Assembly (NCBI GenBank): GCA_022841745.1
Contig: JALHQW010000074.1
Location: forward strand, 1-36,502
Direction: 5' to 3'
DNA from: Saprospiraceae bacterium
GTDB lineage: Bacteria > Bacteroidota > Bacteroidia > Chitinophagales > Saprospiraceae
Length of the DNA stretch: 36,502 nucleotides
Part shown: one piece after another, positions 253 through 34,772 of the stretch
How the letters are laid out: each line of letters begins with the position of its first letter
Position numbering within the stretch: the stretch's first letter is position 1
The notes under the pieces: generated by a model
What the model saw: the letters and a program-made list of their open reading frames with translations, nothing else
Told to the model about the DNA's origin: nothing
Databases searched by the model: none
Translations under genes and position numbers: made by a program

Positions 253-1071
253 TTAACTCAACAACCCTATCGCCCCAGACACACTCCTCCCCGCCATCTC
301 ATGCGCAAACTCCACCGCCCCAACCACATCCCTCCCCTCCGCAAACCGCAGTAGCAAGCTCGCCGCAAACACATCCCCCGCTCCCGTCGGGCTTTTCTCC
401 TCTACCTTCATGGCAGGGTAATGCGCAGGAACGCCAGCCTCAAAAACAGTGGCACCCCCAGCGCCCTGCGTGACGACCAGCAGTGGCACCTGCTTCGCAA
501 TGGCCCGAATCAGCTCCCAATCGCAGCCTACATCGGCCTCGCTCATGGAGACGAGGTCGGCCTTGGCCAGCACCGACCAATCGGGGATGGGCTTGGGGGA
601 GACCAAGTTATTGGCATCCCATTGCCGCATCCAGCCTTGCGGGCAGGCGCAGGTCACGGTGTTTTGCGCAGCAAAAAAATCGAGGAACTCCAAATTGACC
701 TCATCGCAGATGGGGCCGAGCAGGGCGGTTTTGGGTGCTTGCCAGTGTTTTGGCAAATCGGCGGGCGTGAGCAGGGCGGCCCGGCTGTGCAGGTATTGTA
801 TGCGTTGGCCGTCAGGTTGGTAAATGTTCTCGAAGACGGTGGTCGTTGCCGAAGGCACCACATGGAGGTCCAGTCCCTCGAATTGCGAAGCGAACTGAAA
901 ATCGGGGCCAAAGGATGTGAGTATCTTGGTAGGATGGCCGAGGCGGTGGGTAAGCAGGCCAGCGTAGGCGGCTGCCCCGCCGGGCGTGTAGCCGTCGGGG
1001 ACTTTATCGTGGCAGATATGGCCGATAATTAATGATGAAGGATGAATGGTGGAATGATGAATGGCGCTCAC
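253..1071 (-). CDS. PfkB-family carbohydrate/nucleoside kinase
   Basis: A 272-residue ribokinase/PfkB-fold kinase that should transfer phosphate from ATP to a sugar or nucleoside in the cytoplasm. The substrate cannot be named. The N-terminal Gly-Gly substrate-lid motif (TPGGAAAYAGLL, about residues 29-40) and the C-terminal signature SPTGAGDVFAASLL, with catalytic Asp about 233, are both intact. The length is slightly short for the family (usually about 290-320). The start is odd: the first fold residues are LIIGHICHDK, but the only in-frame ATG lies 14 codons upstream inside a short tandem array (1031-1064), so residues 1-14 (MSAIHHSTIHPSSL) are array-encoded. ilvE lies upstream on the same strand, about 110 bp away across an inverted pair of arrays. 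Family assignment is confident; specificity is not. Confidence 0.85.
   Translation of the reverse strand: MSAIHHSTIHPSSLIIGHICHDKVPDGYTPGGAAAYAGLLTHRLGHPTKILTSFGPDFQFASQFEGLDLHVVPSATTTVFENIYQPDGQRIQYLHSRAALLTPADLPKHWQAPKTALLGPICDEVNLEFLDFFAAQNTVTCACPQGWMRQWDANNLVSPKPIPDWSVLAKADLVSMSEADVGCDWELIRAIAKQVPLLVVTQGAGGATVFEAGVPAHYPAMKVEEKSPTGAGDVFAASLLLRFAEGRDVVGAVEFAHEMAGRSVSGAIGLLS
1031..1064 (+). repeat. Short tandem array, pfkB side of an inverted pair
   Basis: Degenerate 7-8 bp units of the type ATGATGA / AGGATGA / ATGGTGG. The array covers the pfkB start region and is translated into the kinase N terminus. It faces an inverted partner array at 1151-1184. Confidence 0.6.
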
Positions 1072-1150
1072 AGCATGTATTGATTGTGTAAAAAATGTTG
1101 CTCAAAAAGCTGCAAGAAAGCCATTTTCCACAAAATCATCTCCTCGTTGG

Positions 1151-1184
1151 CCATTCATCATTCATTATTTTCCATTCATCATTA
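1151..1184 (-). repeat. Short tandem array abutting the ilvE stop codon
   Basis: The inverted partner of the 1031-1064 array (units such as CCATTCATCATT). On the minus strand it begins at the ilvE stop codon TAA (1182-1184). Confidence 0.6.
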
Positions 1185-2264
1185 CCCCACAAGTTCTTCC
1201 GCAAGCACAGGCACGGGTACAGTCCAGCCCCATTTGTCCTCAATGACACCAGCCCTCATGCCGTCAATCACGGCCTTCACATGGGTGCCAATTTTGCGCT
1301 CGCTCACAGGCGGCAGGGTCATCAGCAGGTCACGGTAGCCGATTTCGCTGACGTGCGAAACGACGGCGGCGGTGCCTGCCCCGAATGCCTCTTGGAGGGT
1401 GCCGTCCTTATGGGCTTGCACCAATTCTTCAATGGTGATGGGGTGCTCCGCAACGGATTTGCCTTCGCTGCGCAGGATTTCAAGGATGCAGTCACGGGTC
1501 ACGCCGTCGAGGATGGTGCCGCCGGTGAGTGGCGGGGTGATGGTCACACCGTTGATGACGAAAAATACATTCATCGTACCGCTCTCCTGGATATACTTGA
1601 ACTCCTTGGCATCGAGCCAGAGCAACTGGTCGAAGCCCCGGTCTTGTGCCAGTTTAGCCGGGTAAAGCGCCCCAGCGTAGTTGCCAGCTGCCTTTGCGAA
1701 GCCGGTGCCGCCTTGCGCAGCACGGATGTACTCGGTCTCGGCCCAAAGGCGAACGGGTTTTGGGTAATAGGGGCCAACAGGGCCTGTGAAGACAAAAAAT
1801 TTGTAAGATTGCGACGGCTTAACGCCGATGAACTCGTCAGTGGCAATCATCGTCGGGCGGATATAAAGGGCGCTACCCTCTTCGTCCGGTATCCAAGCTT
1901 GGTCTATTTGCACGAGCCTTGTAAGTGCTTCAGTGAACAAGTCCTCTGGGAACGCTGGCATGCACATGCGCTTGGCAGAGACATTCATGCGGTGGGCGTG
2001 GCGCTCCGGGCGGAATAGCATCGGAGTGCCATCGTGGGTCTTGGATGCCTTCATTCCCTCGAAAATGGCCTGTCCATAGTGCAGCGCCATCGTAGCGGGG
2101 TGCAGCACGAAGCTATGGAATGGTTCGATGCGGGGGCTGTGCCACTCGCCGTTGTCGTAGTCGCAGACGAAGATATGGTCAGCGAAATTGCGGCCAAAAG
2201 GCAGGTTGGTAAAGTCAACTTCGGCAATGCGGGTGGTAGGTGATTTCGTGATTTTAATTTTCAT
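1182..2264 (-). CDS. ilvE: Branched-chain amino acid aminotransferase
   Basis: A fold-type IV PLP aminotransferase of 360 residues. It interconverts leucine, isoleucine and valine with their 2-keto acids, using glutamate/2-oxoglutarate, and acts in the cytoplasm. It is of the BCAT II (eukaryote-like) type: HYGQAIFEGMKA near residue 62, FRPERHAHRMN near 84, the PLP lysine in GFAKAAGNYAG (Lys191), QESGTMNVFFV, and the phosphate-binding loop GGTILDGVTRDCILEIL. Length is normal and the gene complete. The ATG at 2264 sits below a Bacteroidota-type promoter (2288-2315). It is transcribed toward the pfkB-family gene but separated from it by an inverted pair of short tandem arrays. No other ilv/leu genes are nearby, so it is probably expressed alone. 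Confidence 0.95.
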   Translation of the reverse strand: MKIKITKSPTTRIAEVDFTNLPFGRNFADHIFVCDYDNGEWHSPRIEPFHSFVLHPATMALHYGQAIFEGMKASKTHDGTPMLFRPERHAHRMNVSAKRMCMPAFPEDLFTEALTRLVQIDQAWIPDEEGSALYIRPTMIATDEFIGVKPSQSYKFFVFTGPVGPYYPKPVRLWAETEYIRAAQGGTGFAKAAGNYAGALYPAKLAQDRGFDQLLWLDAKEFKYIQESGTMNVFFVINGVTITPPLTGGTILDGVTRDCILEILRSEGKSVAEHPITIEELVQAHKDGTLQEAFGAGTAAVVSHVSEIGYRDLLMTLPPVSERKIGTHVKAVIDGMRAGVIEDKWGWTVPVPVLAEELVG

Positions 2265-2287
2265 GTCCGAGTTCTTTTATTTTTGCA

Positions 2288-2315
2288 CAAAATTATCCAG
2301 AAAATCATTTTCAAA
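2288..2315 (-). promoter_or_regulatory. Predicted Bacteroidota-type promoter for ilvE
   Basis: On the minus strand, TTTG (2315-2312) and TAATTTTG (2295-2288) are 16 nt apart. They match the -33 and -7 elements of the Bacteroidota housekeeping sigma factor. The start codon is about 24 nt downstream of the -7 element. Confidence 0.55.
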
Positions 2316-2385
2316 AAAATAAATTTTTCCGAATAGGGCCAAAAAAACGCCCTTTTGGAATAAAATTCTGAAAACAGGTCAAAAT

Positions 2386-2826
2386 ATGAATACGCAACCC
2401 AATGGAATTTTGGACTTCAAGGTCTATCCATTAAAGGAAAACATACTTTCAAGCGGTGTTGGGAACAACCGTAAAGGCCTCTTTGTCGGCTGCAAGGGTA
2501 CGCCCCGACCCGAAACGCTGGAACTGCTCACCAAAATGCTCCAAGCCGCCAAGTTTGACATAGCCGAGGATGCACTCGTCTGCTGGCTTTCCGACGACCA
2601 GCCCTTCAGCTTTTCTTCGCTGCGCAATGAGGCTGATATTTCAAACGCCCTTTTCTTCGGCATTCCACCAAAACAGGCCGGTATTAACGTCAACGCACAG
2701 CCCTACCAACCCATCTCCATTGGGGGAGCCACTTACTTTTTTTCTGCCAGTTTGGACGAAATCATCGCCAACCCTGACTTGAAAAGGCCGCTTTGGGCAG
2801 GGATGAAAGGAATGTTTGGGGTATGA
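2386..2826 (+). CDS. Conserved-looking hypothetical protein, 146 aa
   Basis: I do not recognise this family. It is a soluble 146-residue protein with no signal peptide or membrane segment. It alternates hydrophobic strands and helices (GLFVGCKG, ETLELLTKMLQAAKFDI, ALVCWLSDD, ALFFGIPPKQAGI), consistent with a small alpha/beta fold. It ends in a hydrophobic/basic tail (LKRPLWAGMKGMFGV). Codon use resembles its neighbours, so the gene looks real. It diverges from ilvE; the 121-bp gap holds an imperfect hairpin (about 2327-2361). The stop codon TGA (2824-2826) lies in the first unit of an 8-bp tandem array. The layout loosely recalls small replication or nucleotide-binding accessory proteins, but I assign no function. 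Confidence 0.7.
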   Translation: MNTQPNGILDFKVYPLKENILSSGVGNNRKGLFVGCKGTPRPETLELLTKMLQAAKFDIAEDALVCWLSDDQPFSFSSLRNEADISNALFFGIPPKQAGINVNAQPYQPISIGGATYFFSASLDEIIANPDLKRPLWAGMKGMFGV

Positions 2827-2860
2827 AAGTATGGAGGTGTGGAGGTGTGGAGGTATGTGA
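2821..2860 (+). repeat. 8-bp tandem array over the stop codon of the 2386 gene
   Basis: About five units of the form GTATGGAG / GTGTGGAG. The first unit supplies the upstream gene's TGA stop. A related array in the opposite orientation follows the parB stop (27855-27888). Confidence 0.65.
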
Positions 2861-2912: not shown

Positions 2913-2955
2913 AAACGCTACAGGCCATGCCCCTAAGGGTGAATATTTCATAAAC

Positions 2956-3032
2956 TATGTCACGCAACGTCGTTACGAGCGCAACGCATTGATAATAAAT
3001 ACGTTGCGTTCGTAGCGGCGTTGCGTGACATA
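2956..3032. repeat. 31-bp-stem palindrome between convergent genes
   Basis: The arms at 2956-2986 and 3002-3032 are inverted copies around a 15-nt AT-rich loop. Of 31 positions 28 match, and each of the three differences still pairs as G-U in RNA. It lies between the convergent 2386-2826 gene and the cytochrome gene ending at 3067. It could form a two-way transcription barrier or be a mobile intergenic repeat. No long T-run follows either arm. Confidence 0.8.
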
Positions 3033-3066
3033 CAATTTTGGACACTCCCGCCCAAGGTAACATTCC

Positions 3067-6512: not shown

Positions 6513-6790
6513 AGAATTTGGTTCTTCGTGTCTTATTGTGGGTAATTTCACTTAACATCTATCATCTTGTAACCCGCTATTTTAATGGCGGGAATTTGGC
6601 AAATACCCACCAACAACATCTTTCTTCTTTACAGAACATCAGCATTTACTATCTTTCGTCAAATGCTTGATGTTGATGTTTAGAAAAGAAGATAGATGTG
6701 CGAGAGGGAACTCATGCTCCCCTCGTTGAAACGAGGGGTTACAATATGATAGATGTTTACCCATACAAAACCACGAAGAACCAAAAACTT
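6513..6790. repeat. REPIN-like composite inverted repeat, ~278 bp
   Basis: Nested inverted repeats. The outer arms share TTTGGTTCTTCGTG (left 6517-6530) and its complement near 6771-6785. Inner arms 6554-6575 and 6736-6757 match at 21 of 22 positions. Next to each inner arm is a 9-bp hairpin with a 2-nt loop: 6573-6592 (one G-U pair) and 6719-6738 (perfect). A central pair of imperfect arms (about 6611-6646 and 6661-6700) closes the structure. The paired, oppositely oriented hairpins resemble REPINs mobilised in trans by RAYT/Y1 (IS200-like) transposases. No transposase lies in the window. Confidence 0.75.
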
Positions 6791-7444: not shown

Positions 7445-7480
7445 CCCAATCCGAAATCCGAAATCGTAAATTCGAAATCA
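7445..7480 (-). repeat. 7-bp tandem array abutting the DUF4256 stop codon
   Basis: On the minus strand the units are GATTTCG, AATTTAC, GATTTCG, then a final GATTGGG. The array starts directly after the DUF4256 TGA (7478-7480). The unit resembles those at 34571-34606. Confidence 0.6.
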
Positions 7481-8041
7481 TACCCTCACTTTCCCCCTAA
7501 ACCCCCTCGCCGCATAATACGATTCCGCCCCATTGTGGTACCAAAACACCGTGTCATACCGACGGTCGCAGAAGACGGCCCCGCCCAGCTTGCGGATGCG
7601 CTCAGGGGTTTTCACCCAACTGGAGGTTTTCAAGTCGAATTGGCCGTGCAGTTGCAGCGCACGGTATTCGTTCTCGTCCAGCAGTTCGATGCCCATCGAA
7701 GCGGCCACGTCCACGGCATTGTCGGCGGGCTTGAACTCTTTCCTCGACTCCCAGGCAGCCCGGTCGTAGCAGAGGCTGCGGCGGCCCTTGGGGCTTTCGG
7801 CTGCGCAATCGTAGAAAAGGTACTCGCCCGTTTTTTCATCGAAACCAACCACGTCTGGCTCGCCACCCGTTTCTTCCATGAAGTGTAGCGACCAAAGCTT
7901 GTCGGGGCGGGCCTCTAATTTTGCTTGCACTTTGGCCCATTCAAGCCCTGCATGGCGGGTCTTGTTTTTCTCAAACCGGGTTTTCAGAATTGTCAAAATT
8001 TCCTCCCGTTGCGCAGCAGTGAGTTCTTTATGATTGTCCAT
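7478..8041 (-). CDS. DUF4256 domain-containing protein
   Basis: A 187-residue cytosolic protein of the DUF4256 family, biochemical function unknown. Family hallmarks are LEWAKVQAKLEARPDKLWSL, METGGEPDVVGFD (here MEETGGEPDVVGFD), YLFYDCAAESPKGRRSLCYDRAAWESRK, ASMGIELLDENEYRALQ and the C-terminal FWYHNGAESYYAARGFRG. The ATG at 8041 gives MDNHKELTAAQREEIL, a natural start; an upstream in-frame ATG at 8137 would overlap the divergent CotH gene region. It is transcribed away from cotH with a 132-bp gap that holds an inverted TGAGCCAAA / TTTGGCTCA pair (about 8067-8131). No operon partner apart from the downstream DUF1653 gene. Confidence 0.88.
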   Translation of the reverse strand: MDNHKELTAAQREEILTILKTRFEKNKTRHAGLEWAKVQAKLEARPDKLWSLHFMEETGGEPDVVGFDEKTGEYLFYDCAAESPKGRRSLCYDRAAWESRKEFKPADNAVDVAASMGIELLDENEYRALQLHGQFDLKTSSWVKTPERIRKLGGAVFCDRRYDTVFWYHNGAESYYAARGFRGKVRV

Positions 8042-13096: not shown

Positions 13097-14057
13097 GCGA
13101 AGCGCCTTTCCTGGCAGCGATAAAGGGGCAAAGCTCGTCGAGACGCATATCTCGTGGGTCATTCTTACGCCTGAATTTGCCTTCAAAATCAAAAAGCCAA
13201 TTCAGTATGACTTCTTGGATTACAGCACGTTGTTGGCTCGAAAGAAATTCTGCCAAGATGAGTACCGGCTAAACCGGCGGCTTGCACCCGACACTTATCT
13301 CGGCGTATTGCCCATTGGATTAAAGGATGGCCAACCGTGCATTGCAGAAGGCATCGAAAACCCAATGGACTATGCCGTTTGGATGCGCAGGGAAGACAAT
13401 GGCCGCCAATTGGACGTTCTGCTTAATGCTGGCAAGGTTAAGCCAGAAGACCTGAAACCGTTGGCCCATTCAATGGCCGTATTCCATCGAAATCATGTAT
13501 TGCCACACCCTCATTTCGACCCTAAGGAGTTGGTAATTGACTTCGCTGATTTGTTCCACCACGAAAAATTGCTTCTTTCCGTACTTGGCCGTGAAACCAA
13601 GGAAACGCTCGAACGGATGAAGGCTTGCCTGCCCATTTTCATCGAAAAACATGGCCGACGGCTAATGGAAAGGGCTGCCAATGGCCAATGGGTGGATGGC
13701 CATGGCGACCTTCATTGCCGCAACATCTTCCTGACCGAACCACCCATCGTGTTCGACTGCATCGAGTTCAACCCGCACCTGCGCCGCCTCGATCTGCTGA
13801 ACGAATTGGCCTTCCTCTGCATGGACTTCGACCACCATGCCCGACCCGACCTCTGTGTTGCCTTCCTTCAATATTACCAACTGGAGCACCCCTGCATCGA
13901 ACAGCCGGAAGACGAATTGCTGTTCCAATTCTTTAAGGCTTATCGGGCCAATGTGCGATTGAAAGTGGCCTTGTTGAGTGGCCGCCCTCATGAGGAAATA
14001 CTGGGCTACTGGAATTTGTTGAATGGATATTGGGGGCTGGTAGCTGGATGCTGTTGA
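13065..14057 (+). CDS. Aminoglycoside phosphotransferase-like kinase (COG2187)
   Basis: A 330-residue protein-kinase-fold enzyme. The catalytic loop is HGDLHCRN (His-Gly-Asp at about residues 215-217), followed by the metal-binding FDCIEFN, as in APH-type small-molecule kinases. The N-lobe has the conserved SWVILTPEFAFKIKKP, with a candidate ATP-binding lysine. I chose ATG 13065 (MDKKQVLDILERS); it overlaps the 3' end of the P-loop kinase gene by 32 bp. An earlier in-frame ATG exists at 13017. The last codons (NGYWGLVAGCC) and the stop at 14055-14057 fall in a 7-bp tandem array beginning near 14025, so the tail is probably array-derived. Predicted substrate: a sugar or other small molecule. 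Confidence 0.82.
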   Translation: MDKKQVLDILERSAFPGSDKGAKLVETHISWVILTPEFAFKIKKPIQYDFLDYSTLLARKKFCQDEYRLNRRLAPDTYLGVLPIGLKDGQPCIAEGIENPMDYAVWMRREDNGRQLDVLLNAGKVKPEDLKPLAHSMAVFHRNHVLPHPHFDPKELVIDFADLFHHEKLLLSVLGRETKETLERMKACLPIFIEKHGRRLMERAANGQWVDGHGDLHCRNIFLTEPPIVFDCIEFNPHLRRLDLLNELAFLCMDFDHHARPDLCVAFLQYYQLEHPCIEQPEDELLFQFFKAYRANVRLKVALLSGRPHEEILGYWNLLNGYWGLVAGCC

Positions 14058-14104
14058 TGCTGGATACTGGATATTGGATATTGGATACTGTTGATGCTGG
14101 ATGA
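14025..14104 (+). repeat. 7-bp tandem array, left member of an inverted pair
   Basis: About ten units of GGATGCT / GGATACT / GGATATT. The array starts inside the COG2187 gene and provides its stop codon. The inverted partner is at 14313-14410. Confidence 0.75.
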
Positions 14105-14312: not shown

Positions 14313-14410
14313 CCAACAGCACCCAGTATCAACAGCAACTAGTATCAACAGCATCCAGCATCCAGTATCCAGCCCCCGCTTTCACCTATCCGCTGCATCC
14401 AGCCGATACC
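14313..14410 (-). repeat. 7-bp tandem array, right member of an inverted pair
   Basis: On the minus strand, units GGATACT, GGATGCT and GTTGATACT continue into the last codons of the glucosaminidase-like gene (GYRLDAADR, stop at 14382-14384). Confidence 0.65.
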
Positions 14411-16022: not shown

Positions 16023-16079
16023 GGTTTACGGCTTACGGTTTACGGCCAATGGCTAACGGCCAAGGGCTTTCGGCTAAGA
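16023..16079 (-). repeat. Eight-unit 7-bp tandem array forming the panC 5' leader
   Basis: Eight consecutive 7-bp units beginning GG (for example GGTTTAC, GGCTTAC, GGCCAAT, GGCTAAG on the plus strand) start at the base next to the panC start codon. The same unit type appears, inverted, at the parA stop codon (28840-28866). Confidence 0.8.
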
Positions 16080-20585: not shown

Positions 20586-20586
20586 G

Positions 20587-20661
20587 GGTGAGGAACGAGG
20601 GATGAGGGATGATAGGTCCCGTGTTTCATCCCTCATCCCTCATCCCTCATCCCCTCATCCC
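20587..20661. repeat. Inverted pair of 7-bp arrays between glmS and DUF4290
   Basis: GAGGGAT-type units (about 20594-20613) are inverted relative to CATCCCT-type units (20626-20661), able to form a long hairpin. The array starts next to the glmS stop and ends 8 bp before the DUF4290 ATG. The right arm has more units than the left. Confidence 0.75.
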
Positions 20662-20669
20662 TTATAAAA

Positions 20670-21401: not shown

Positions 21402-21425
21402 CCATATCTTGGTTTCAACAATACC

Positions 21426-21462: not shown

Positions 21463-21558
21463 ATTAAAAAAGTCCAACTCCTTGCTTGAAATTCAGAAGA
21501 ATGTGGTTTATTTGACATTCATTGCAAAAAAACACCTTCACATTACAAAACGAAGAAA

Positions 21559-22812: not shown

Positions 22813-24042
22813 ATGACTGAAACAACGAAGAAAATCCCGATTCCCAAGTCCCTAACGGAAGGCCAGTTGCAGCCACAGGCTGAAATGTTGGCCATGAAAC
22901 CAAGCGCAGGCCGCATGACCATTGGCATTCCAAAGGCCGAAGTAATGCAAGAGAGCCGAATAGCCCTGGTGCCTTCTGCCGTAATGGCGTTGACTGGAAT
23001 GGGCTTCAACGTGCTGGTGGAGACAGGAGCAGGCGAAAAGGCCAATTACAACAACCACCGTTACTCGGAATCGGGGGCCGAGATTTGCTATGAGCGGAGC
23101 AAGGTTTTTCAGTCGAACGTCCTACTTATGGTAGCTCCGCCAACCATGGAAGAGATTGCCATGTTCCACCCGAACCAATTCATCATATCGCCCCTTCACA
23201 TTCCTGCGCTGACCGACGAGTTCGTGCGCAAAATCCTTGAAAAGCGGGTGATTTCGATGGCCATGGAATATATCAAGGACGAAAACGGCACTTTCCCCCT
23301 TGTGCGGGTGATGAGCGAGCTGGCGGGCATCAGCGTTATGCTATCGGCTGCCGAGTTGATGACAAGCACGGGCGGTGGCAAGGGCGTCCTGTTGGGTGGC
23401 ATAGCGGGTGTGCCTTCGGCAAAGGTGGTGGTGCTGGGCGCAGGCATCGTGGGCGAATCGGCGACAAGGGTAGCGCTCGGCCTCGGTGCTGATGTGCGGG
23501 TATTCGACAACGATGTTTACAAGTTGATGCGGCTCCAGCGGCACGTTGGCCAGAAACTGAACACCTCCACGCTCAACCCGTCCCAATTGGAAAAAGAACT
23601 TATCAATGCCGACGTGGTCATTGGGGCCGTGCATTCGAAAACGGGGCGTTCCCCGGTCATTGTGCCGGAAAGCCTCGTGGAAAAAATGAAGCCGGGCACC
23701 GTGATCGTGGACGTGAGCATTGACCAAGGTGGCTGTTTCGAAACCTCCGAAATCACTTCGCTTGACCGACCAACTTTCGTAAAGCACGGTGTGGTGCATT
23801 ATTGTGTGCCGAATGTCGCCTCGAAAGTACCCCGAACCGCCTCCATCGCCATCAGCAATATCCTGACTCCCATGCTCATCAACGCTGACAATAGTGGAGG
23901 TTTGGACGAACTGCTCTTCGAAAACTATGGCCTCCGCAACGGCGTCTATGCCTATAAAGGCCGCCTGACCAACGCCTATATGGGCAGGCGTTTTGGCATC
24001 AAGCACACCGACTTGGGCCTTCTGATGGCAAGCCGATCATAG
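22813..24042 (+). CDS. ald: Alanine dehydrogenase family protein (divergent active site)
   Basis: A 409-residue homologue of alanine dehydrogenase and the transhydrogenase alpha subunit. It has the N-terminal AlaDh/PNT domain (MTIGIPKAEVMQESRIALVPSAV from residue 35), the Rossmann motif GAGIVGESATRVALGLGADVRVFD, and IVDVSIDQGGCFET. The family enzyme oxidises alanine to pyruvate and ammonia with NAD+. Against M. tuberculosis Ald, His96 (here His129, LHIP) and Asp270 (IDQGG) are kept, but catalytic Lys75 aligns without gaps to Ala108 (LMVAPPT in place of VKVKEP). It also has a 34-residue N-terminal extension. Activity as an alanine dehydrogenase is therefore uncertain. It follows tsaE closely. 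The stop (24040-24042) leads into a short GGATTA-type array. Confidence 0.85.
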   Translation: MTETTKKIPIPKSLTEGQLQPQAEMLAMKPSAGRMTIGIPKAEVMQESRIALVPSAVMALTGMGFNVLVETGAGEKANYNNHRYSESGAEICYERSKVFQSNVLLMVAPPTMEEIAMFHPNQFIISPLHIPALTDEFVRKILEKRVISMAMEYIKDENGTFPLVRVMSELAGISVMLSAAELMTSTGGGKGVLLGGIAGVPSAKVVVLGAGIVGESATRVALGLGADVRVFDNDVYKLMRLQRHVGQKLNTSTLNPSQLEKELINADVVIGAVHSKTGRSPVIVPESLVEKMKPGTVIVDVSIDQGGCFETSEITSLDRPTFVKHGVVHYCVPNVASKVPRTASIAISNILTPMLINADNSGGLDELLFENYGLRNGVYAYKGRLTNAYMGRRFGIKHTDLGLLMASRS

Positions 24043-24064
24043 GGATTACGGATTGGGATTAGGA
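24041..24064 (+). repeat. Short GGGATTA-type array at the ald stop codon
   Basis: Units GGGATTA, CGGATTG and GGATTAGG begin inside the stop codon context. A related run (attgcggattgcgggttgcg) lies at 24211-24230. Confidence 0.45.
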
Positions 24065-24192: not shown

Positions 24193-24272
24193 ATTTTCTG
24201 AACACCCCTAATTGCGGATTGCGGGTTGCGAATAAGTTTCGAATTTAATGGCAGCGGGAAACAGGAAAATGG

Positions 24273-25020: not shown

Positions 25021-25494
25021 ATGGCAGATAAACTTGACCGTACCGATTTGAAGATTTTGAAAATTCTTCAAGAAAATTGCAAAATAACAAACCTTGACCT
25101 TTCCAAGAAGATTGGCCTGTCACCTGCGCCAACGCTTGAGCGTGTGAAAAAACTCGAAACCGTTGGCTACATCGAGAGCTACCACGCCCAGATTAACCCG
25201 CAGAGCATTGGTTTGAACGTACAGACTTTCGTTCAGGTATCCCTCGCTTGGCAAAAGGAGAACGCTTTGAACAACTTCCTTGAGAAAATCAAGGCCATTG
25301 ATGAAATCGTTGAGTGCTATATCATCACTGGCGAGGCTGATTTCCTCATCAAGATCGTTTGCAAGGACATCCCTTCCTACGAGCAACTCCTGTTCAAGAC
25401 ACTTTCTCAAATCGAGGAAATCGAGCGTTTGAAAACGCTCATGACCCTCTCCACCGTGAAGAACTCAAAGATTCTTCCCTACGACTACGAATAA
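25021..25494 (+). CDS. Lrp/AsnC family transcriptional regulator
   Basis: A 157-residue DNA-binding regulator that responds to amino acids in related proteins. The N-terminal winged helix-turn-helix (about 5-55) reads LDRTDLKILKILQENCKITNLDLSKKIGLSPAPTLERVKKLE in outline; the C-terminal RAM effector/oligomerisation domain (about 70-150) has VECYIITGEADFLIKIVCKD. Full length and complete. Single-gene unit with a terminator at 25591. Target genes cannot be told from the window; its closest neighbours are trxA (divergent) and a TraB-family gene. Confidence 0.93.
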   Translation: MADKLDRTDLKILKILQENCKITNLDLSKKIGLSPAPTLERVKKLETVGYIESYHAQINPQSIGLNVQTFVQVSLAWQKENALNNFLEKIKAIDEIVECYIITGEADFLIKIVCKDIPSYEQLLFKTLSQIEEIERLKTLMTLSTVKNSKILPYDYE

Positions 25495-25507
25495 TTAGTC
25501 GGAATGC

Positions 25508-25540
25508 TGGATGCTAGATACTGGATGCTAGATACTGGTT
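25508..25540 (+). repeat. 7-bp tandem array after the Lrp gene (left of an inverted pair)
   Basis: Alternating GGATGCT and AGATACT units beginning 13 bp after the Lrp stop codon. The inverted partner array is at 25628-25682. Confidence 0.7.
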
Positions 25541-25590
25541 ATCCGAAACCAGATTTTTGCAACCAGCACTATAGGAAAAAGTCTTATCGA

Positions 25591-25626
25591 ATGGCCGGAC
25601 AGCATATAAGTTGTCTGGCCATTTTT
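25591..25626 (+). terminator. Intrinsic terminator after the Lrp gene
   Basis: ATGGCCGGACA (25591-25601) pairs with TGTCTGGCCAT (25612-25622), with one G-U pair, followed by TTTTT. It lies between the two inverted arrays. Confidence 0.75.
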
Positions 25627-25627
25627 C

Positions 25628-25682
25628 AATCCAGCATCCCCCGCAAGTGCAAGCAGTATCCAGCATCCAGCATCCAGCATCC
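25628..25682 (-). repeat. 7-bp tandem array abutting the TraB-family start codon
   Basis: CAGCATC / CAGTATC units run up to the base before ATG 25683 and thus form the whole near-start leader of that gene. Confidence 0.7.
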
Positions 25683-26474
25683 ATGCACCACAACAGCCTG
25701 ATTTGGAAAATAGAAGGCGAGTCACTCCCCTCCCCTTCTTACGTTTTTGGCACCATGCACGTGCGTGACCGCCGGGCGTTCAGGCAACTGACGCTTGTCC
25801 ATGAAAAAATGGCGGCTTGCGAAGGTTATGCCGCAGAGTTTCACTTGGATGAAAGCATGGGGCAAGCGGAAGCGAACGCCATGCAACTGCCAACAGGAAA
25901 AGCCCTCAGTAGCTTTTTCCCTGCAAAGGAACTCAAGCGCTACCGCAACCTGCTGTTGAAAAGCACAGGTCTTGACTTGGCCAATTTCGAGAAAGTGCTG
26001 CCTTTTGTCGTGTTGAACCTCGCCACGGAGCACCTCCTCGCCAAAGACATGCCCGAACCACTAGACCAACACCTTTGGAACCATGCAAAACTGGCCGGGA
26101 AATCACTGTACGGCATAGAGACTTTTCAGGAACAGATGTCCGTGCTGGCGCAAATCCCGCTTGAAACGCAAGTGAAGATGCTCAGTGGCCTCTGTGCCAA
26201 TATCAGCAAGTTCCGGCACTACCTGCGACGATTGGCCGAGCATTACGAAGCCAGCGAACTACAGCAACTCTATAAAATGGTGAAACGAAATACAAAGGAC
26301 CTCCGTCCTTTGATGTTGTACCATCGAAACGAGGTAATGGCGGAACGCATCGCAGCCTTGACCCAACAGCAATCGGTATTCATTTCGATAGGGGCCGCAC
26401 ACTTGAGCGGGGGGAAGGGCGTGCTGCGGCTGTTGAAGAAAAAGGGATTGTCAATATCGCCAGTAAAGGCATAA
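25683..26474 (+). CDS. TraB/GumN family protein
   Basis: A 263-residue member of the TraB/GumN (Tiki-like) superfamily, some members of which are metal-dependent proteases. Family motifs are the N-terminal GTMHVRD (GxxH, about residues 23-29) and the C-terminal VFISIGAAHLSGGKGVLRLLKKKG (GAAHL). Conserved Glu residues occur in YAAEFHLDES and YGIETFQEQ. No signal peptide is seen, unlike many GumN proteins. I chose ATG 25683 (MHHNSLIWKIEG); upstream in-frame codons are all array sequence. Its stop faces the RDD gene with a 4-bp gap between convergent genes. The physiological substrate is unknown. Confidence 0.87.
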   Translation: MHHNSLIWKIEGESLPSPSYVFGTMHVRDRRAFRQLTLVHEKMAACEGYAAEFHLDESMGQAEANAMQLPTGKALSSFFPAKELKRYRNLLLKSTGLDLANFEKVLPFVVLNLATEHLLAKDMPEPLDQHLWNHAKLAGKSLYGIETFQEQMSVLAQIPLETQVKMLSGLCANISKFRHYLRRLAEHYEASELQQLYKMVKRNTKDLRPLMLYHRNEVMAERIAALTQQQSVFISIGAAHLSGGKGVLRLLKKKGLSISPVKA

Positions 26475-27854: not shown

Positions 27855-27888
27855 CCCATATCTTCATACCTCATACCTCCACACCTCA
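27855..27888 (-). repeat. 8-bp tandem array at the parB stop codon
   Basis: On the minus strand the parB TGA is the first part of GAGGTGTG / GAGGTATG units. The unit resembles the 2821-2860 array. Confidence 0.6.
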
Positions 27889-28782
27889 GTTTTTTTCCAA
27901 CAAGTCCAGCAGTCGGTTCAAATCCTTGGTAGAGGTGAATGGAATGGCAATCTGTCCAGCGCCATTGGCCTTCACCTTCAGGGCCACCTTTGCACCGAGG
28001 CGGGTGCGGAGCGAGTCCTGCACGTTCTGGTAGTCGGCACCGAGCTTGGGCTTGGCGGGCTTGGGCTTTTTGTCCTCGTTGTAGTGGCGAATGAGGTCTT
28101 CGGTTTCCCGCACCGATAGCTTGTCGGCGATGATGCTCTTGAAAATAGAGTGCTGCATTGCAAAATCGCTGATGCCGAGCAGCGCACGGGCATGGCCCAT
28201 GCTGATGCTTTCACCCTTCAACCCCTTCTGGATGTCAGGCGGCAGCTTGAGCAGTCGCAGGAAATTGGACACGGTACTGCGCTTCTTGCCTACCCGATCG
28301 CTGAGGTTATCGTGTGTAAGGCTGCACTCGTCTATGAGGCGTTGGTAGGTAATGGCCACCTCTATGGCGTTCAGGTCTTCCCGCTGGATGTTCTCCACGA
28401 GCGCCATTTCAATCATCTCTTGGTCATTCGCCAAGCGGATATAGGCTGGCACCTCCGTAAAACCTGCCAGTTTCGAAGCCCGCATACGCCGCTCACCGGA
28501 AATGAGCTGGTACTGCTTGTCGGCCAGGCGGCGCACGGTGATAGGCTGGATGAGGCCATGCACTTTCAGCGATTCGGCCAGTTCGGCCAAGGCCTCCGGG
28601 TCGAAGTCAACACGGGGCTGAAAGGGGTTCACCTCGATTTCAGTCAACGGAATCATCGCCACAGTATGCGTCAGTTCCCGCACCACCTCCACCTGCTTTT
28701 CGTGCGATTGCGCTTCGATATTTGTCAACAACGCCCTGACTCCGAGGCCGAGGGCTGCTTTTTTTGCTACTTGTTTTGCCAT
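27886..28782 (-). CDS. parB: Chromosome partitioning protein ParB
   Basis: A 298-residue DNA-binding CTPase that loads at parS sites and spreads to form the partition complex acted on by ParA. The N-terminal CTPase/ParB domain has IEVNPFQPRVDFD, the CTP motif GERRMRASKLAG, and LVENIQREDLN. A central HTH (KKRSTVSNFLRLLKLP, about 165-180) contacts parS. The C-terminal dimerisation domain ends IPFTSTKDLNRLLDLLEKN. Complete and of usual length. It follows parA by 69 bp, all of it a 7-bp array. I did not notice a canonical parS site in this window. Confidence 0.95.
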   Translation of the reverse strand: MAKQVAKKAALGLGVRALLTNIEAQSHEKQVEVVRELTHTVAMIPLTEIEVNPFQPRVDFDPEALAELAESLKVHGLIQPITVRRLADKQYQLISGERRMRASKLAGFTEVPAYIRLANDQEMIEMALVENIQREDLNAIEVAITYQRLIDECSLTHDNLSDRVGKKRSTVSNFLRLLKLPPDIQKGLKGESISMGHARALLGISDFAMQHSIFKSIIADKLSVRETEDLIRHYNEDKKPKPAKPKLGADYQNVQDSLRTRLGAKVALKVKANGAGQIAIPFTSTKDLNRLLDLLEKN

Positions 28783-28792: not shown

Positions 28793-28868
28793 TGCTGGAT
28801 GCTGGATACTTGATGCTGGATGCCCCACGTCCACCGTCCATCGTTTATCGTTTACCGTAAGCCATCGT
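28793..28868 (-). repeat. 7-bp tandem array filling the parA-parB gap
   Basis: About ten 7-bp units in register on the minus strand, changing from GGTAAAC/GATAAAC through GGTGGAC to ATCCAGC. It begins in the last codons of parA and ends about 10 bp before the parB start. The two unit types match those at panC (16023) and near the TraB gene (25628). Confidence 0.75.
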
Positions 28869-29628
28869 TATTCCTTTTCAAAAACTCCTTCGCCAGGTTC
28901 AAAAAATTCGTTGTGCCACGGCTGCCAGCGTCGTACATGATGACGGGCTGGTGGACGTTGGGGGCCTCACTGATTTTGGCGTTTCGGTGGATGATGGTGT
29001 CGAACACCTTCTCCTTGTAAAAACTGCGCACCTCGTTCACCACCACATTGGCGAGGCGGAGGCGGCTATCATACATGGAGAGTAGGATGCCCTCTATTTC
29101 GAGCTTTTTGTTGAAGTTCTGCTTAACAGAGTTGATGGTCTGCTGCAATTTACCGAGGCCCTCCAAGGAGAAATACTCGCACTGCACAGGGATGATAACC
29201 GAATCGGCGGCGCTGAGGGCATTCAGCGTGATGATGCCAAGTGAGGGCAGACAGTCAATTAGTACATAATCGTAGCTGTCCCGCACCTTGTTCAGTACGG
29301 CCTCCAGCACGTATTCACGCCGGGGCCTCGTCACCAATTCCAGTTCAGCACCCACGAGGTCAATATGTGAGGGCAGCAGGTGCAAGTTCGGCGTCTCCGT
29401 TTCATAAATGGCCTCAGCGGGGTCGGTACCGTTCACAAGGCAGTCGTAGAGGCTGAACTCAATGGCATCTTGGAACACCCCCACGCCCGACGACGAGTTG
29501 GCCTGCGGGTCGGCGTCCACGAGCAGCACTTTTTTCTCCAGGATGGCCAGGCAGGCCGCCAGGTTAATGGCCGCCGTCGTTTTGCCAACGCCGCCTTTTT
29601 GGTTTGCTATCGCAATGATTTTTCCCAT
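28852..29628 (-). CDS. parA: Chromosome partitioning ATPase ParA
   Basis: A 258-residue Walker-type ATPase (Soj/ParA) that moves ParB-parS complexes over the nucleoid. The deviant Walker A motif KGGVGKTT is at residues 11-18; DADPQANSS and [10 protein letters not shown] (Walker B) follow. Length and order match chromosomal parA. It is the first gene of a minus-strand cluster parA-parB-DUF5683(-RDD). The last codons (NNDGLR) and stop TAA at 28854-28852 lie in the start of a 7-bp array. Upstream is the duplicated GGATTGGA repeat block (29634-29905), so its promoter must lie within or beyond that block. Confidence 0.96.
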
Positions 29629-29633
29629 TTATT

Positions 29634-29905
29634 AAGGATTGAAGGATTGGAGGATTGGAGGATTGAAGGGTTGGGGGCGTTGTTAATTCCCTCAAATCTT
29701 CTTCCTTTTACCCTTTTTACCCTTTCTACAAGGATTGGAGGATTGGAGGATTGAAGGGTTGGGGGGTTGGGGGCGTTGTTAATTCCCTCAAATCTTCTTC
29801 CTTTTACCCTTTTTATCCTTTCTAAAAGGATTGGAGAATTGAAGGATTAAAAGATTAGGGCATGCTGCCCTTCAATCCTTCACCCCTTCAATCCTTCAAT
29901 CCTTT
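29634..29905. repeat. GGATTGGA repeat block with an ~88/96-bp tandem duplication
   Basis: The copies 29643-29730 and 29731-29826 are nearly identical; the second has an extra 8 bp (TTGGGGGG) and small changes. A third partial copy starts at 29827. Each begins with GGATTGGA/GGATTGAA octads and continues with a shared ~50-bp non-repeat segment. Inverted units (CCTTCAAT) at about 29869-29905 cross into the 3' end of the UPF0173 gene. No gene is seen in 29629-29879. Confidence 0.8.
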
Positions 29906-30572
29906 CGCCAAGGGCCGGCAAAAGTAGCCTTTTCCCCTTGGCCGCAAAAGCATTTTTCGCCGCATCGTGGTCAATCACCACGGGCGGGAAGGTGTCGAAG
30001 TGGCAACCGATGATGGTATCGCACTGGATGAACTCAGCGGCAATGGCCGCATCGTCGTAGCCCATCGTGAAATTATCGCCGACTGGCAGGATGGCGAAGT
30101 CCAATTTGGGACAGGTCACGGGGATGAGTTTCATGTCCATCGTGAGGGCCGTGTCGCCAGCAAAGTAGAAGCAGCCGTCCGTGTCGTTCCAAATGACAAA
30201 ACCGCCGGGGTTGCCGCCATAAGTGCCATCGGGCAGCACACTGGAATGTGTGGCATACACGTATTTGACCCAGCCGAAGTCGAAACGGTACTTGCCGCCG
30301 TGGTTCATGCCGTGGCCATTGATGCCCTTGCCGCCGTAGTAGGTGGCGATTTCATAATTCGAGATAATGGTGGCCCCATTTTGCTTCGCAATGCGCTCGG
30401 CATCCGCCACGTGGTCGCCGTGGCCGTGCGAGAGCAGTACGTAATCCGCTTTGATTTCATCCACGTTGATGCCCGCCGCTGCCGGGTTGGGCGAGATAAA
30501 GGGGTCGAAGACCAATCGTTTGCCACCGAACTCGATTAGGAAGCTGGAATGGCCGAGGTAGGTTATGTTCAT
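29880..30572 (-). CDS. UPF0173 metal-dependent hydrolase (metallo-beta-lactamase fold)
   Basis: A 230-residue cytosolic hydrolase. It has the di-metal motif HGHGDH (in LLSHGHGDHVADAE), MNHGG, FAGDTAL, and ILPVGDNFTMG. It matches the UPF0173 / L-ascorbate-6-phosphate lactonase-like group; the substrate is unknown. I chose ATG 30572 (MNITYLGHSSFLIEFGG), the usual family start; an upstream ATG at 30611 adds 13 unrelated residues. The C terminus ...GERIEGLKG and its stop are encoded by inverted GGATTGAA repeat units, so the final residues are probably array-derived. A TACCTTTG element (30594-30601) lies 21 nt upstream of the start. Confidence 0.9.
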   Translation of the reverse strand: MNITYLGHSSFLIEFGGKRLVFDPFISPNPAAAGINVDEIKADYVLLSHGHGDHVADAERIAKQNGATIISNYEIATYYGGKGINGHGMNHGGKYRFDFGWVKYVYATHSSVLPDGTYGGNPGGFVIWNDTDGCFYFAGDTALTMDMKLIPVTCPKLDFAILPVGDNFTMGYDDAAIAAEFIQCDTIIGCHFDTFPPVVIDHDAAKNAFAAKGKRLLLPALGERIEGLKG

Positions 30573-30867: not shown

Positions 30868-31803
30868 ATGAAAAATTTTCGTTTTTTCCTCAGCGTCTTA
30901 ATGCTTGGCCTTGTGACCACTTCTTTCTTTTCCTGCAAAGATGATGGCGACGACACGCCAGATCCAAAGAACATTACTGAAATAGTGGTGGATGGTGACG
31001 ACTTCAGCGACCTCGAAATCGCCCTGACCCGTGCCAACTTGACCTCCGTGCTGGAAGGCGCTGGCCCCTTCACGGTCTTTGCCCCAACCAATGCCGCTTT
31101 CGACAAGGCAGGCATTGACGTGAACACCATTGACGTGAATACCTTGACCACAGTGCTGCTCTACCACGTTTTGGGCGGCGCATCCATCAAGTCAACTGAC
31201 CTGCAAGCTGGCCAGACCTACGCCTCCACGGCTTCTGAGAACGGCCCGAACGGTGAGCAGCTTTCCATCATGATTGAAAAAACGGGCAGCGCCGTAAAGG
31301 TGAACAACACCGCCAACGTGACTGCCGCCGACGTGAGCGCCACCAACGGCGTCATCCATGTCATTGACAACGTCATCCTGCCGCTCAACGTGGTAGGCCA
31401 TGCAGCAGCCAACAGCAATTTCACCTCCTTGGTGAGCACGCTCGGTGCCGCTTCCGGCGACCTGGTGAACGTCCTAAGCGGCGACGGCCCGTTCACGGTC
31501 TTTGCCCCTGTCAACAGCGCTTTTGAAGAAATCGAAACTGTGGCAGCTGGCCTTACCCCTGACCAATTGGCCAAGGTGCTGACCTATCACGTAGTGAACG
31601 GCAACGTCGTCTCCAGCGACCTTTCTAACGGCATGAGCGTCACGACCGTCAACGGAGAAACTTTCACCGTCAATATCAGTGGCAGCACGGTGACCATCAC
31701 CGACACTGGCGGCAACGTGGCCAATGTGGTGCTGACCGATGTACAAGCCACCAACGGCGTCATCCACGTGATTGACAAGGTGATTTTGCCATCGAACCTG
31801 TAA
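30868..31803 (+). CDS. Lipoprotein with two fasciclin (FAS1) domains
   Basis: A 311-residue cell-surface/periplasmic adhesion-type lipoprotein. ATG 30868 gives MKNFRFFLSVLMLGLVTTSFFSCKDD with a lipobox-like FFSC. Two FAS1 domains follow (about 35-165 and 172-310), each with the H1/H2-type motifs GPFTVFAPTNAAF / GPFTVFAPVNSAF, YHV (LLYHVLGG, LTYHVVNG) and ATNGVIHVIDNVILP / ATNGVIHVIDKVILP. FAS1 proteins mediate cell-cell or matrix contact. An in-frame ATG 15 codons upstream is less likely. The gene is followed by a TCATGGCT octad array and a bidirectional terminator. Confidence 0.93.
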   Translation: MKNFRFFLSVLMLGLVTTSFFSCKDDGDDTPDPKNITEIVVDGDDFSDLEIALTRANLTSVLEGAGPFTVFAPTNAAFDKAGIDVNTIDVNTLTTVLLYHVLGGASIKSTDLQAGQTYASTASENGPNGEQLSIMIEKTGSAVKVNNTANVTAADVSATNGVIHVIDNVILPLNVVGHAAANSNFTSLVSTLGAASGDLVNVLSGDGPFTVFAPVNSAFEEIETVAAGLTPDQLAKVLTYHVVNGNVVSSDLSNGMSVTTVNGETFTVNISGSTVTITDTGGNVANVVLTDVQATNGVIHVIDKVILPSNL

Positions 31804-31809
31804 TGGGAC

Positions 31810-31846
31810 TCATGGTTTCATGGCTTCATGGCTTCATGGTTGAATA
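31810..31846 (+). repeat. 8-bp tandem array after the FAS1 gene
   Basis: TCATGGTT / TCATGGCT octads, four units, starting 7 bp after the stop codon. Confidence 0.7.
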
Positions 31847-33615: not shown

Positions 33616-34446
33616 ATGAACAAGAGATCTTTGAATTCGTCCCTTATGTTTTTGGCAACTGCCTTCCTGCTCGTTTTCACCGCTTGCCAAAAAGAAGAGA
33701 AGGTCACTCCCGAAGCTGACAAAGCCGCCATCGAGCAGACAAAACAAGCGATGGCTAACCAGCAAATCATGCTTTCTTCCTTTAATATCGCCCAGTGGGG
33801 CGCCGAGAACGCCAACGGCATCCAAGATGGAAAAGTGCAGGAAAGAAGCTGCGGCACCATCACCGTTACGCCGCCCGACCTGCTGGTTTTCCCGAAGGTC
33901 GTCACCGCTGATTTTGGCGCTGGTTGCATAGACGACGACGGCAAGTTCAAGCAAGGCAAGGTCATCATGACTGTCGGGGCTTTTTGGGAACCGAACGCCA
34001 GCATCATCGTCACCTACGACAATTACTACGAAGACAACGTGAAGGTGGAAGGCCAATTCACCTTCGTCAACCTCAGCACCCCCGATGCCGCCATCCTGCG
34101 CATTGATGCGAATAGCATCAAGCTCACCGACCAGAATGGCTACACCTTTGCTTTTACCGGTGACCAAACTTACACCCAAACCGCTGGCCATGCCACTTGG
34201 TGGGATGCCAACGACGACGTTTTCGAAGTGACGGGCAGTATCTTCAGCACCCTCACCAATGGCGAAACCGTGAATTGGCTCATCCAAACCCCGCTCGTGA
34301 AGGCCAATAACTGCGCATGGGTCAGCCAGGGCAAGGTCACCCTCGACATCAACGGCTTGCCCGTCTATGTGGATTACGGCAACGGTACCTGCGATAACCA
34401 AGGCACTTATTCGGTTAATGGGCAGGTGTATCCGTTTACCATCTGA
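33616..34446 (+). CDS. Hypothetical Bacteroidota lipoprotein
   Basis: A 276-residue predicted lipoprotein of unknown function. The signal peptide (MNKRSLNSSLMFLATAFLLVFTACQKEE) ends in a lipobox-like FTAC. The mature part is beta-rich with recurring Cys, Gly and Asp: SCGTITVTPPDLLVFPKVVTADFGAGC, KFKQGKVIMTVGAFWEPNASIIVTYDNYYEDNVKVEGQFTFVN, and C-terminal NCAWVSQGKVTLDINGLPVYVDYGNGTCDNQG. It resembles a widespread group of uncharacterised Bacteroidota lipoproteins with 'FPK..T.DFG..C' and 'DNYY' motifs; four conserved Cys may form disulfides. The TGA (34444-34446) is the first triplet of a ~50-bp inverted repeat. Confidence 0.8.
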   Translation: MNKRSLNSSLMFLATAFLLVFTACQKEEKVTPEADKAAIEQTKQAMANQQIMLSSFNIAQWGAENANGIQDGKVQERSCGTITVTPPDLLVFPKVVTADFGAGCIDDDGKFKQGKVIMTVGAFWEPNASIIVTYDNYYEDNVKVEGQFTFVNLSTPDAAILRIDANSIKLTDQNGYTFAFTGDQTYTQTAGHATWWDANDDVFEVTGSIFSTLTNGETVNWLIQTPLVKANNCAWVSQGKVTLDINGLPVYVDYGNGTCDNQGTYSVNGQVYPFTI

Positions 34447-34501
34447 TTTCGGAATAGGTTCCCTACGGGAATGACAAAGATTTCGGATTGGGGGCACAGT
34501 A

Positions 34502-34541
34502 AACCTTCCAAGTCTGCGAGACTTGGAAGGTTTTTTATTTT
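34502..34541 (+). terminator. Intrinsic terminator, copy 1
   Basis: A perfect 14-bp stem (34502-34515 with 34519-34532), loop GCG, then T-rich tract. It ends transcription from the lipoprotein gene. Confidence 0.85.
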
Positions 34542-34616
34542 CTGCCAGCCCTGACTTTCGTCACCGCCTCCGAATTGCGGAATTCGGATTGCGGATTTCG
34601 GATTGGGGTGCCTGCT

Positions 34617-34656
34617 AACCTTCCAAGTCTGCGAGACTTGGAAGGTTTTTTATTTT
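34617..34656 (+). terminator. Intrinsic terminator, copy 2 (exact duplicate)
   Basis: Identical to copy 1, 115 bp further on, within the duplicated 64-bp segment. Any tnaA promoter on the plus strand must lie downstream of it (34657-34772) or read through. Confidence 0.85.
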
Positions 34657-34772
34657 CTGCCAGCCCTGACTTTCGTCACCTGTCAATGAAATCTTAAGCC
34701 CTTCCTTTGCCGCATATTCCGCCCCCCAATCCGCAATCTTTGTCATTCCCGTAGGGAACCTAATCCGCAATC

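Follow-up and report, generated by a model that had tools for sequence, protein, structure and literature searches.

Intergenic gaps in the genome of a Saprospiraceae bacterium were confirmed to hold short tandem arrays with a repeat step of 7 or 8 nucleotides (nt), and close to gene ends the G/T-rich strand of these arrays was found nearly always to read outward from the neighboring gene, at both ends of the gap, independently of the repeated unit. The window under study is the whole of contig C74, 36,502 bases long, from a genome of 8.43 Mb in 178 contigs. A first-pass annotation of this window had listed degenerate 7- to 8-bp repeats in one gap after another, placed on gene ends; their outward polarity had not been noticed. 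We also found that the inverted arms of one gap share a unit family, that the first unit of an array often overlaps the end of the gene, and that the units at orthologous gaps mostly differ between species of the same genus.

Periodicity and outward polarity of the arrays

The genome sample comprised the window and 80 further stretches, together 1.634 Mb or 19% of the genome. An in-house hexamer scorer, whose stops are reliable and whose starts are less so, called 1,130 genes, and 924 gaps of at least 20 nt were analyzed. Arrays were called at 12 or more of 14 matches at lag 7 or 8, with short-period low-complexity stretches removed. This gave 207 arrays in 158 of the 924 gaps, which bore out across this sample the claim of a 7- to 8-bp unit in many gaps. 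Per lag, the gaps held 119 arrays at lag 7 and 79 at lag 8, compared with 2 to 4 at each of lags 4 to 6 and 4 to 18 at each of lags 9 to 13. Coding DNA held 39 at lag 7 and 9 at lag 8, far fewer per base (265,580 gap versus 1,340,181 coding bases), and no arrays were detected at lags 5 to 12 in 53 gaps from 100 kb of Escherichia coli K-12. Arrays were present in 119 of 633 co-directional, 25 of 129 convergent, and 14 of 162 divergent gaps, being rarer in the last class.

The first-pass annotation had suggested autocorrelation against shuffled sequence as a check. When this was carried out on 436 kb, gap DNA exceeded the shuffles 4.9-fold at lag 7 and 6.5-fold at lag 8, with control lags 3 to 6, 9, and 11 to 13 at 1.0- to 1.1-fold and lag 10 at 1.5-fold. 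Sums of 7 and 8 (lags 14, 15, 16, 21, 23, and 24) were also enriched. The lag-8 value is inflated because one 305-nt GGGGTTTT array is located in L020. This array (L020 11943-12247, GGGGTTTT / GGGTTTTC) is much longer than the other arrays of the same set.

Within the window, all 15 stretches that had been listed as arrays exceeded, at lag 7/8, the level in dinucleotide-shuffled versions of themselves (p ≤ 0.05), 10 of them at p < 0.005. The weakest were 27855-27888 (p 0.05), 1031-1184 (p 0.04), 24041-24064 (p 0.03), and 25508-25540 (p 0.02). Tandem Repeats Finder (TRF) reported units of period 7, 8, 14, 15, or 16 in 14 of the 15, the sole stretch without a report being 24041-24064. The array pair at 1031-1183 was left out of the counts because the window's first gap was mis-bounded by the gene caller. 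The contact with gene ends described previously applied to most arrays, 141 of the 206 scorable arrays being within 25 nt of a gene end, but not to all, since the listed stretch 34571-34606 is mid-gap.

A "G/A-rich start" had been given as a common feature of the units. This is better replaced by a strand identity, as one strand of the arrays was G/T-rich and C-poor (G.34, T.34, A.24, C.09). Among the 141 near-end arrays (25 nt or less), 130 had the G/T-rich strand reading outward from the gene (p 6e-27; 71/81 for 3' ends and 59/60 for 5' ends), and the nearer gene was on the 5' side of the G strand in 168 of 206 arrays. The rule was obeyed in co-directional (93/102), divergent (10/11), and convergent (27/28) gaps. 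Since convergent gaps hold 3' ends only and gave 27/28, a bias in leader composition alone was rejected as the cause. The background bias at the 3' ends of array-free gaps was slight (128 v 115 and 147 v 110). Single arms obeyed the polarity too (72 of 82, summed over gap classes), and after the exclusion of 11 arrays belonging to a dispersed GGGTTTTC element and of 3 merged palindromes, the counts were 70 v 8 at 3' ends and 59 v 1 at 5' ends. The picture was unchanged at thresholds of 11, 13, and 14; arrays at control lags near gene ends were too few to reveal a rule.

In gaps with at least two arrays, G-type arrays came first and C-type arrays last in 39 of 41. This G-to-C arrangement was found in 24 of 633 co-directional (3.8%), 9 of 129 convergent (7.0%), and 6 of 162 divergent (3.7%) gaps and, being no commoner in the co-directional class, is therefore not dependent on a shared transcript. 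On the same figures, an operon-coupling hairpin joining stop and start was rejected as a general cause.

These results bear on plain neutral slippage, in which gap DNA would tolerate tandem duplication and heptads would slip best, with no direction. The rarity of arrays in coding DNA and in divergent gaps is consistent with it. So is the predominance of heptads among the long simple repeats of many prokaryotes, and Mrazek et al. proposed a polymerase footprint of 7 nt (as cited in PMC4679880 and PMC4692102). Slippage of this kind leaves unexplained the polarity (130/141), the G-to-C order (39/41), and the sharing of units across gaps described below. It is already disfavored, and we consider it improbable.

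Unit sharing within gaps and unit differences between species

The 207 arrays yielded 92 consensus strings, near variants being counted separately, and this upheld the view that one genome holds many unit types, for which there is some precedent in the range of heptamers that MacGregor 2015 mentions in Microcystis (PMC4679880). The further claim that units are locus specific was only partly correct, as the commonest recurred, GGATTGAA in 13 gaps and GGATTGC and GGATGCT in 12 each.

The left and right arms of one gap belonged to the same unit family in 26 of 40 pairs, compared with 2.8 by chance (maximum of 8 in 2000 shuffles). Likewise, the mean arm-to-arm alignment score was 17.95 within a gap versus 6.48 between gaps (permutation maximum, 9.98), and some pairs were near-mirror copies (L027, L073, L080, and L081). 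The first unit often overlapped the coding end: when the last seven coding bases beside 50 arrays were examined, 159 of 350 positions matched the array period versus 110.9 when the coding ends were exchanged as a control (maximum of 142 in 5,000 permutations).

The same data address the alternative that units move from gap to gap through recombination or ectopic template switching, a shared heptad pool invading and replacing residents, with the polarity marking the priming end of invading strands. Such spread would account for the commonest units being present in 12 to 13 gaps each, for the best match lying in another gap for 28 of 39 arms (about 200 candidates versus one partner), for the 94% match that window array 1031-1066 has elsewhere in the source genome, and for the scatter of three tandem GGATTNC units over genomes (11 of 395, including our own). 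However, same-gap family sharing far above chance and first units that run into the gene end both point to a local origin. Apart from the dispersed GGGTTTTC element, which is a sequence shared between gaps, no shared flank or insertion signature was noticed by eye, with no systematic search made, and the spacers differ between gaps. As an explanation of the arrays, we regard such spread between gaps as quite unlikely.

A dispersed element with TAGAACCCGAAAACCCGAAAACT recurs in several gaps (L017 7444-7466, L018 15504-15526, and L020 13775-13797 and 19072-19094), and in some of these copies the flank is also alike (for example, CAATGGTTCGTGAAGTTTT). The element seems to be distinct in kind from the heptads at gene ends.

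The arrays within the window were as follows (coordinates, strand, unit, and position).

1031..1063, +, AATGATG / GGATGAA: G-type, left arm of an inverted pair; TRF period 7
1152..1183, -, CATTCAT: C-type right arm adjoining the 3' end of gene 1182-2264 (-); TRF period 7
2827..2858, +, TGGAGGTG, 8 nt: G-type, immediately 3' of the stop of 2386-2826 (+)
7445..7479, -, AATCCGA: C-type, 3' end of 7478-8041 (-)
14043..14103, +, GGATGCT/GGATACT: G-type, spans the stop of 13065-14057 (+)
14314..14373, -, CAGCATC/CAGTATC: C-type, inverted partner of 14043..14103, 3' end of 14382-15092 (-)
16023..16075, +, GGTTTAC/GGCTTAC/GGCTAAC: G-type, start of 15171-16022 (-)
20590..20612, +, GAGGGAT: G-type, past the stop of 18747-20585; other units at the orthologous gap in several relatives
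20626..20662, -, CATCCCT: C-type, inverted partner of 20590..20612, ahead of the start of 20670-21401
24041..24064, +, GGATTAC/GGATTGG: weak G-type (p 0.03), stop of 22813-24042
24210..24231, +, GGATTGC: G-type, mid-gap; absent from the first-pass list
25507..25538, +, GGATGCT/AGATACT: G-type, downstream of 25021-25494 (+)
25653..25685, -, CAGCATC: C-type, enters the start codon at 25683
27857..27888, -, CATACCTC: C-type, spans the stop of 27886-28782 (-, ParB-like)
28793..28823, +, GGATGCT: G-type, upstream of the ParB-like gene (-)
28840..28868, -, ATCGTTT/CCGTCCA: C-type, spans the stop of 28852-29628 (-, ParA-like)
29632..29673, +, GGATTGAA/GGATTGGA, 8 nt: G-type, upstream of the ParA-like gene (-)
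29729..29773, +: repeat copy of the 29632..29673 G-type array, inside a 96-nt tandem duplication
29869..29906, -, TTCAATCC: C-type inverted partner, extends into the end of gene 29880-30572 (-)
31809..31842, +, GGCTTCAT/GGTTTCAT, 8 nt: G-type, downstream of 30901-31803 (+); partner not detected
34571..34606, +, GGATTGC/GGATTTC: G-type, mid-gap

The start of gene 253-1071 (-) is uncertain, the gene caller having placed it beyond the 1031..1063 array. In the parA-parB gap, the arms 28793..28823 and 28840..28868 carry different, non-pairing units. The 96-nt tandem duplication upstream of the parA-like gene (29634-29856, 2.3 copies) includes the heptad array and a TTTTACCCT run. Other repeats in the window comprise a 51-bp near-perfect inverted repeat with GGTTCCCTACGGGAATGACAAAG and a duplicated block with AACCTTCCAAGTCTGCGAGACTTGGAAGGTTTTTTATT, both within 34446-34772, and L130 holds a block resembling the window's (TTCCCGCAGGGAA). 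Imperfect inverted repeats were also seen by eye in the gaps at 2940-3035 and 6540-6760 (ACGCAACG...CGTTGCGT; AACATCTATCAT...ATGATAGATGTT).

The gap upstream of the parA-like gene was compared by eye in 13 loci, our own and those of 12 relatives in the genus, and a clear inverted heptad pair was present in 9. The unit was GGATTGAA-like in our own locus, L131, and L132, and GTGAGAGC, GTGAGAAC, AAAAGTA, GAGTGTTT, GTTTGAGA, or TTGAGAGG elsewhere, both arms having changed together. The exceptions were L133, with a weak pair; L135 and L139, with hairpins lacking clear heptads; and L136, with a 12-nt gap and no pair. Predicted folding was strong in some loci (-104.9 kcal/mol in L137 and -79.7 in L128).

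A wider set was taken from a syntenic block in nine relatives, restricted to those window gaps for which three or more of them have adjacent orthologues (11 gaps, 85 gap-genome cells, threshold 11/14). Arrays were detected in 29 of the 85 cells and not in the other 56. When arrays on the same side of a given gap were set against each other, they were alike in 7 and different in 44 of 51 comparisons, these being overlapping genome pairs that include mid-gap arrays and a few chance matches, with merged long palindromes counted as one array. Arrays thus differed between species of one genus, at the level of one genome per species, while the relatives' arrays near gene ends followed the polarity by 22 v 1.

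At gap 20586-20669, the unit was GAGGGAT in G000, G001, and G007, AATGATG in G008, TCATACC in G005, and CATTCAT in G004; the GAGGGAT arrays formed pairs in three species and the AATGATG arrays a pair in one, with single arms of further units elsewhere, and no array was detected in G013. At gap 25495-25682, the GGATGCT arms 25507..25538 and 25653..25685 flank a terminator that is conserved in several relatives, including G006, G008, and G010, where no array was detected at this gap. The terminator in gap 21402-21558 kept its form, with no swapping, in the relatives shown. At gap 17105-17263, a long hairpin just past the stop codon recurs in several relatives with quite different stems whose arms are not clear heptads, and the proposed arm-copying process may not be limited to heptads.

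A proposed directional copying process and its alternatives

Four constraints were considered in seeking a mechanism: the two step sizes, the outward direction at both gap ends regardless of transcription, the sharing of units across a retained middle, and the unit differences at fixed sites. Together these favor outward 3' extension with inverted template switching, and we give close to an even chance that the arrays are products of directional DNA-level copying, being neither a coded element nor a selected RNA motif. During replication or repair, the 3' end just leaving a gene would be extended outward as the G/T-rich, C-poor strand, so that the direction of the arrays would be that of the 3' end of a growing strand. 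The growing end would slip back and recopy its last 7 to 8 nt, often starting with the final few bases of the gene. A template switch across the gap would then copy the repeat in inverted form to the opposite gap end, giving a G-type left and a C-type right arm of one unit; template switching that generates hairpin arms is an established mechanism (PMC8794818). Selection would act only as a filter, purging arrays that hit genes, promoters, or terminators, and we propose that arrays survive against gene ends because they are purged elsewhere in this way.

The first-pass annotation had guessed at a single process making or spreading heptads. This reading is partly supported, since one polarity rule and two step sizes extend over many units and inverted arms share a unit family. 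Of its two suggestions, "slippage plus templated copying" is preferable to an unknown element, as the conserved terminator survives between the arms of gap 25495-25682.

Outward growth of a G/T-rich strand with its 3' end leading, in steps of 7 to 8 nt, would also be expected of a dedicated reverse transcriptase or telomerase-like enzyme adding short templated repeats to DNA ends in gaps. Telomeres have a G/T-rich strand with the 3' end leading. Group II-like reverse transcriptases have been reported in end joining. However, an RVT_1 match was found in just 7 of 14 genus genomes including our own (other enzyme families were not searched), and G001 (98% complete) and G005 (100% complete) carry arrays with no RVT_1 match. 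A required RVT_1 reverse transcriptase is unlikely on this evidence, and we consider a dedicated enzyme of either type highly improbable.

Directional copying was also weighed against selection for structure, in which paired arms would form an mRNA or DNA hairpin or a G-rich structure beside stop and start codons, serving termination, mRNA protection, or insulation while the units drift. The inverted pairs with several units and strong folds in 9 of 13 parA-upstream loci are consistent with such selection, as are the hairpins of gap 17105-17263, which recur with different sequences and without clear heptads. In addition, Rehm et al. reported G-quadruplex (G4) formation by the Xanthomonas and Nostoc units and 83% site conservation between two Xanthomonas species (PMC4692102). 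Were an RNA helix under selection, G.U pairs should be tolerated on the transcribed strand, whereas the co-directional array stems had G.U v A.C counts of 49 v 68 (43 stems) compared with 76 v 54 (47 stems) in array-free co-directional gaps, gaps over ~400 nt and stems scoring under 14 being excluded. As this result went the other way, RNA-pairing selection was rejected. The wider proposal must also contend with a G-to-C arrangement that is no commoner in co-directional gaps, single arms that keep the polarity without a detected partner (72/82), parA-parB gap arms that do not pair, and 56 of 85 orthologous cells without a detected array. Selection for structure is therefore, in our judgment, rather unlikely.

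Several observations weigh against directional copying as outlined above. Array-free gaps are already biased alike at their 5' ends (242 v 64 and 245 v 52), and only 3' ends therefore provide a clean test of polarity. The 65 scorable arrays more than 25 nt from a gene end had no clear polarity (39 v 26, p 0.14), and convergent array gaps gave G.U and A.C counts too small for a judgment (11 v 8). Unit order was only mildly conserved between arms, 5 of 39 pairs reaching p < 0.05 in a unit-order shuffle. Among the 22 same-family pairs for which sufficient arms of that family existed in other gaps, the partner was hardly closer on average than same-family arms elsewhere (0.77 v 0.72) and beat every other arm in just 7. 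Fresh mirror copying as the sole origin of arm sharing was accordingly only partly supported. Unit families also recur across many gaps, which local seeding alone does not predict, and an extra step is therefore needed, either copying between gaps or a sequence preference. Among the relatives' cells with both arms, the unit was shared in 4 of 7 and differed in 3, and these comparisons reach only species of one genus, one genome each.

Outside the genus, the evidence was less favorable. Three tandem GGATTNC units were found in 11 of 395 sampled Bacteroidota genomes, our own included, scattered over several families, whereas the reversed control gave 6 matches in 5 of 395. Four genomes were rich in matches: our own (65), G149 (112), G303 (24), and G268 (18). 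In the ten distant Bacteroidota with GGATTNC, the near-end polarity was 11 v 3 (p 0.057) and the G-to-C order was present in just 3 of 8 multi-array gaps, while for 25 of 33 arrays the nearer gene was the one 5' of the G strand. No array was detected in two of these genomes, and the gene calls for the whole set were poor because training DNA was lacking. A cyanobacterial plasmid with 14 arrays in 230 gaps lacked the polarity (7 v 6). This is a weak test because Rehm et al. did not find such repeats on Anabaena plasmids (PMC4692102). At the same threshold, 12 of 38 ParB loci held an array, 11 of the 12 being from metagenome-assembled genomes (MAGs) labeled Saprospiraceae, Saprospirales, or Bacteroidetes, and several of the 26 array-less loci had few or zero callable gaps. 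A Sphingobacteriales MAG, outside the Saprospiraceae, had two heptad arrays (AATTACG and AATTCGT) in one stretch, L065. The polarity rule is therefore firm in the genus and has been published for the chromosomes of Xanthomonas and Nostoc, but it is unproven elsewhere.

Relation to known repeat systems

The short tandemly repeated repetitive (STRR) sequences are defined repeat families of heterocystous cyanobacteria. Like them, the arrays described here are degenerate heptads in tandem between genes, but a search with the ParB-like protein gave relatives mostly labeled Saprospiraceae or other Bacteroidota (7 at 86-93% protein identity) rather than heterocystous cyanobacteria.

A close likeness is to the intergenic heptads GGGAATC and GGGGA(C/T)T described by Rehm et al. 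2015 in Xanthomonas and Nostoc sp. PCC 7120 (PMC4692102). Those heptads adjoin an open reading frame (ORF) 5' of the G strand whatever the ORF direction, are under-represented in divergent gaps, occur singly or as inverted pairs, and vary in length and sequence between species, and our arrays behave similarly in intergenic concentration (119 gap versus 39 coding arrays at lag 7) and in ORF proximity on the 5' side of the G strand (168/206). Since the same rule was reported there, the polarity itself is not new. Rehm et al. followed a single type of unit in each genome, whose G-runs can form G4 (PMC4692102), whereas here there are 92 strings, periods of both 7 and 8, and differing units at orthologous gaps, and G-runs of three are absent from the commonest units GGATTGAA, GGATTGC, and GGATGCT, which thus do not conform to GGGAATC/GGGGAYT. 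What is added here is that the polarity is independent of the unit; what also seems novel is that one genome holds many units and that these are replaced at fixed sites.

Replacement has a precedent in the P6b stem of the Nostoc tRNA-Leu intron, built of degenerate heptads of class I (TDNGATT) and class II (NNTGAGT), in which one class has repeatedly been replaced by the other at one locus (PMC4476775); here similar replacement was observed at several intergenic sites. The TAACTGA repeats of Beggiatoaceae, Cyanobacteria, and five Bacteroidetes (MacGregor 2015, PMC4679880) are also short intergenic heptad arrays, sporadic over phyla and sometimes mixed with other heptamers. They differ in having one unit, in BOGUAY mostly just upstream of starts, with related heptamers seldom forming direct repeats. 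Among the 60 of our 92 consensus strings that were inspected, TAACTGA was absent. The template-switch hairpins of Monttinen and Loytynoja 2022 resemble our proposal in that inverted arms are made and repaired by copying, and their account, as described, does not address 7- to 8-nt tandem units or outward polarity (PMC8794818). No report of such arrays in Saprospiraceae was found in the open-licence literature, where the searching aimed at this family was narrow.

It is possible, though doubtful, that a directional gene-end process is common to at least three bacterial phyla, with outward G/T-rich growth in 7- to 8-nt steps that repeatedly rewrites whole gaps, placing a new unit on either side and sparing the functional elements between. 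If so, the STRR, GGGAATC, and TAACTGA repeats and the Nostoc intron stem would be scars of one unrecognized replication or repair pathway, telomere-like in its polarity. Why long bacterial simple repeats favor heptads has been a question since at least 2007 (Mrazek et al., as cited in PMC4679880 and PMC4692102), and the polarity rule makes it testable. With many units, every gap orientation, and several species of the genus all obeying the polarity, and with units differing at fixed sites, the process can be set apart from any one sequence or regulatory role. The findings also caution against taking inverted, structured intergenic DNA for a conserved RNA element on the ground that its sites are conserved. 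The arrays are a real and orderly phenomenon of a known kind, richer here than in the published descriptions consulted, and the part worth following is the outward, unit-independent polarity combined with the swapping of units.

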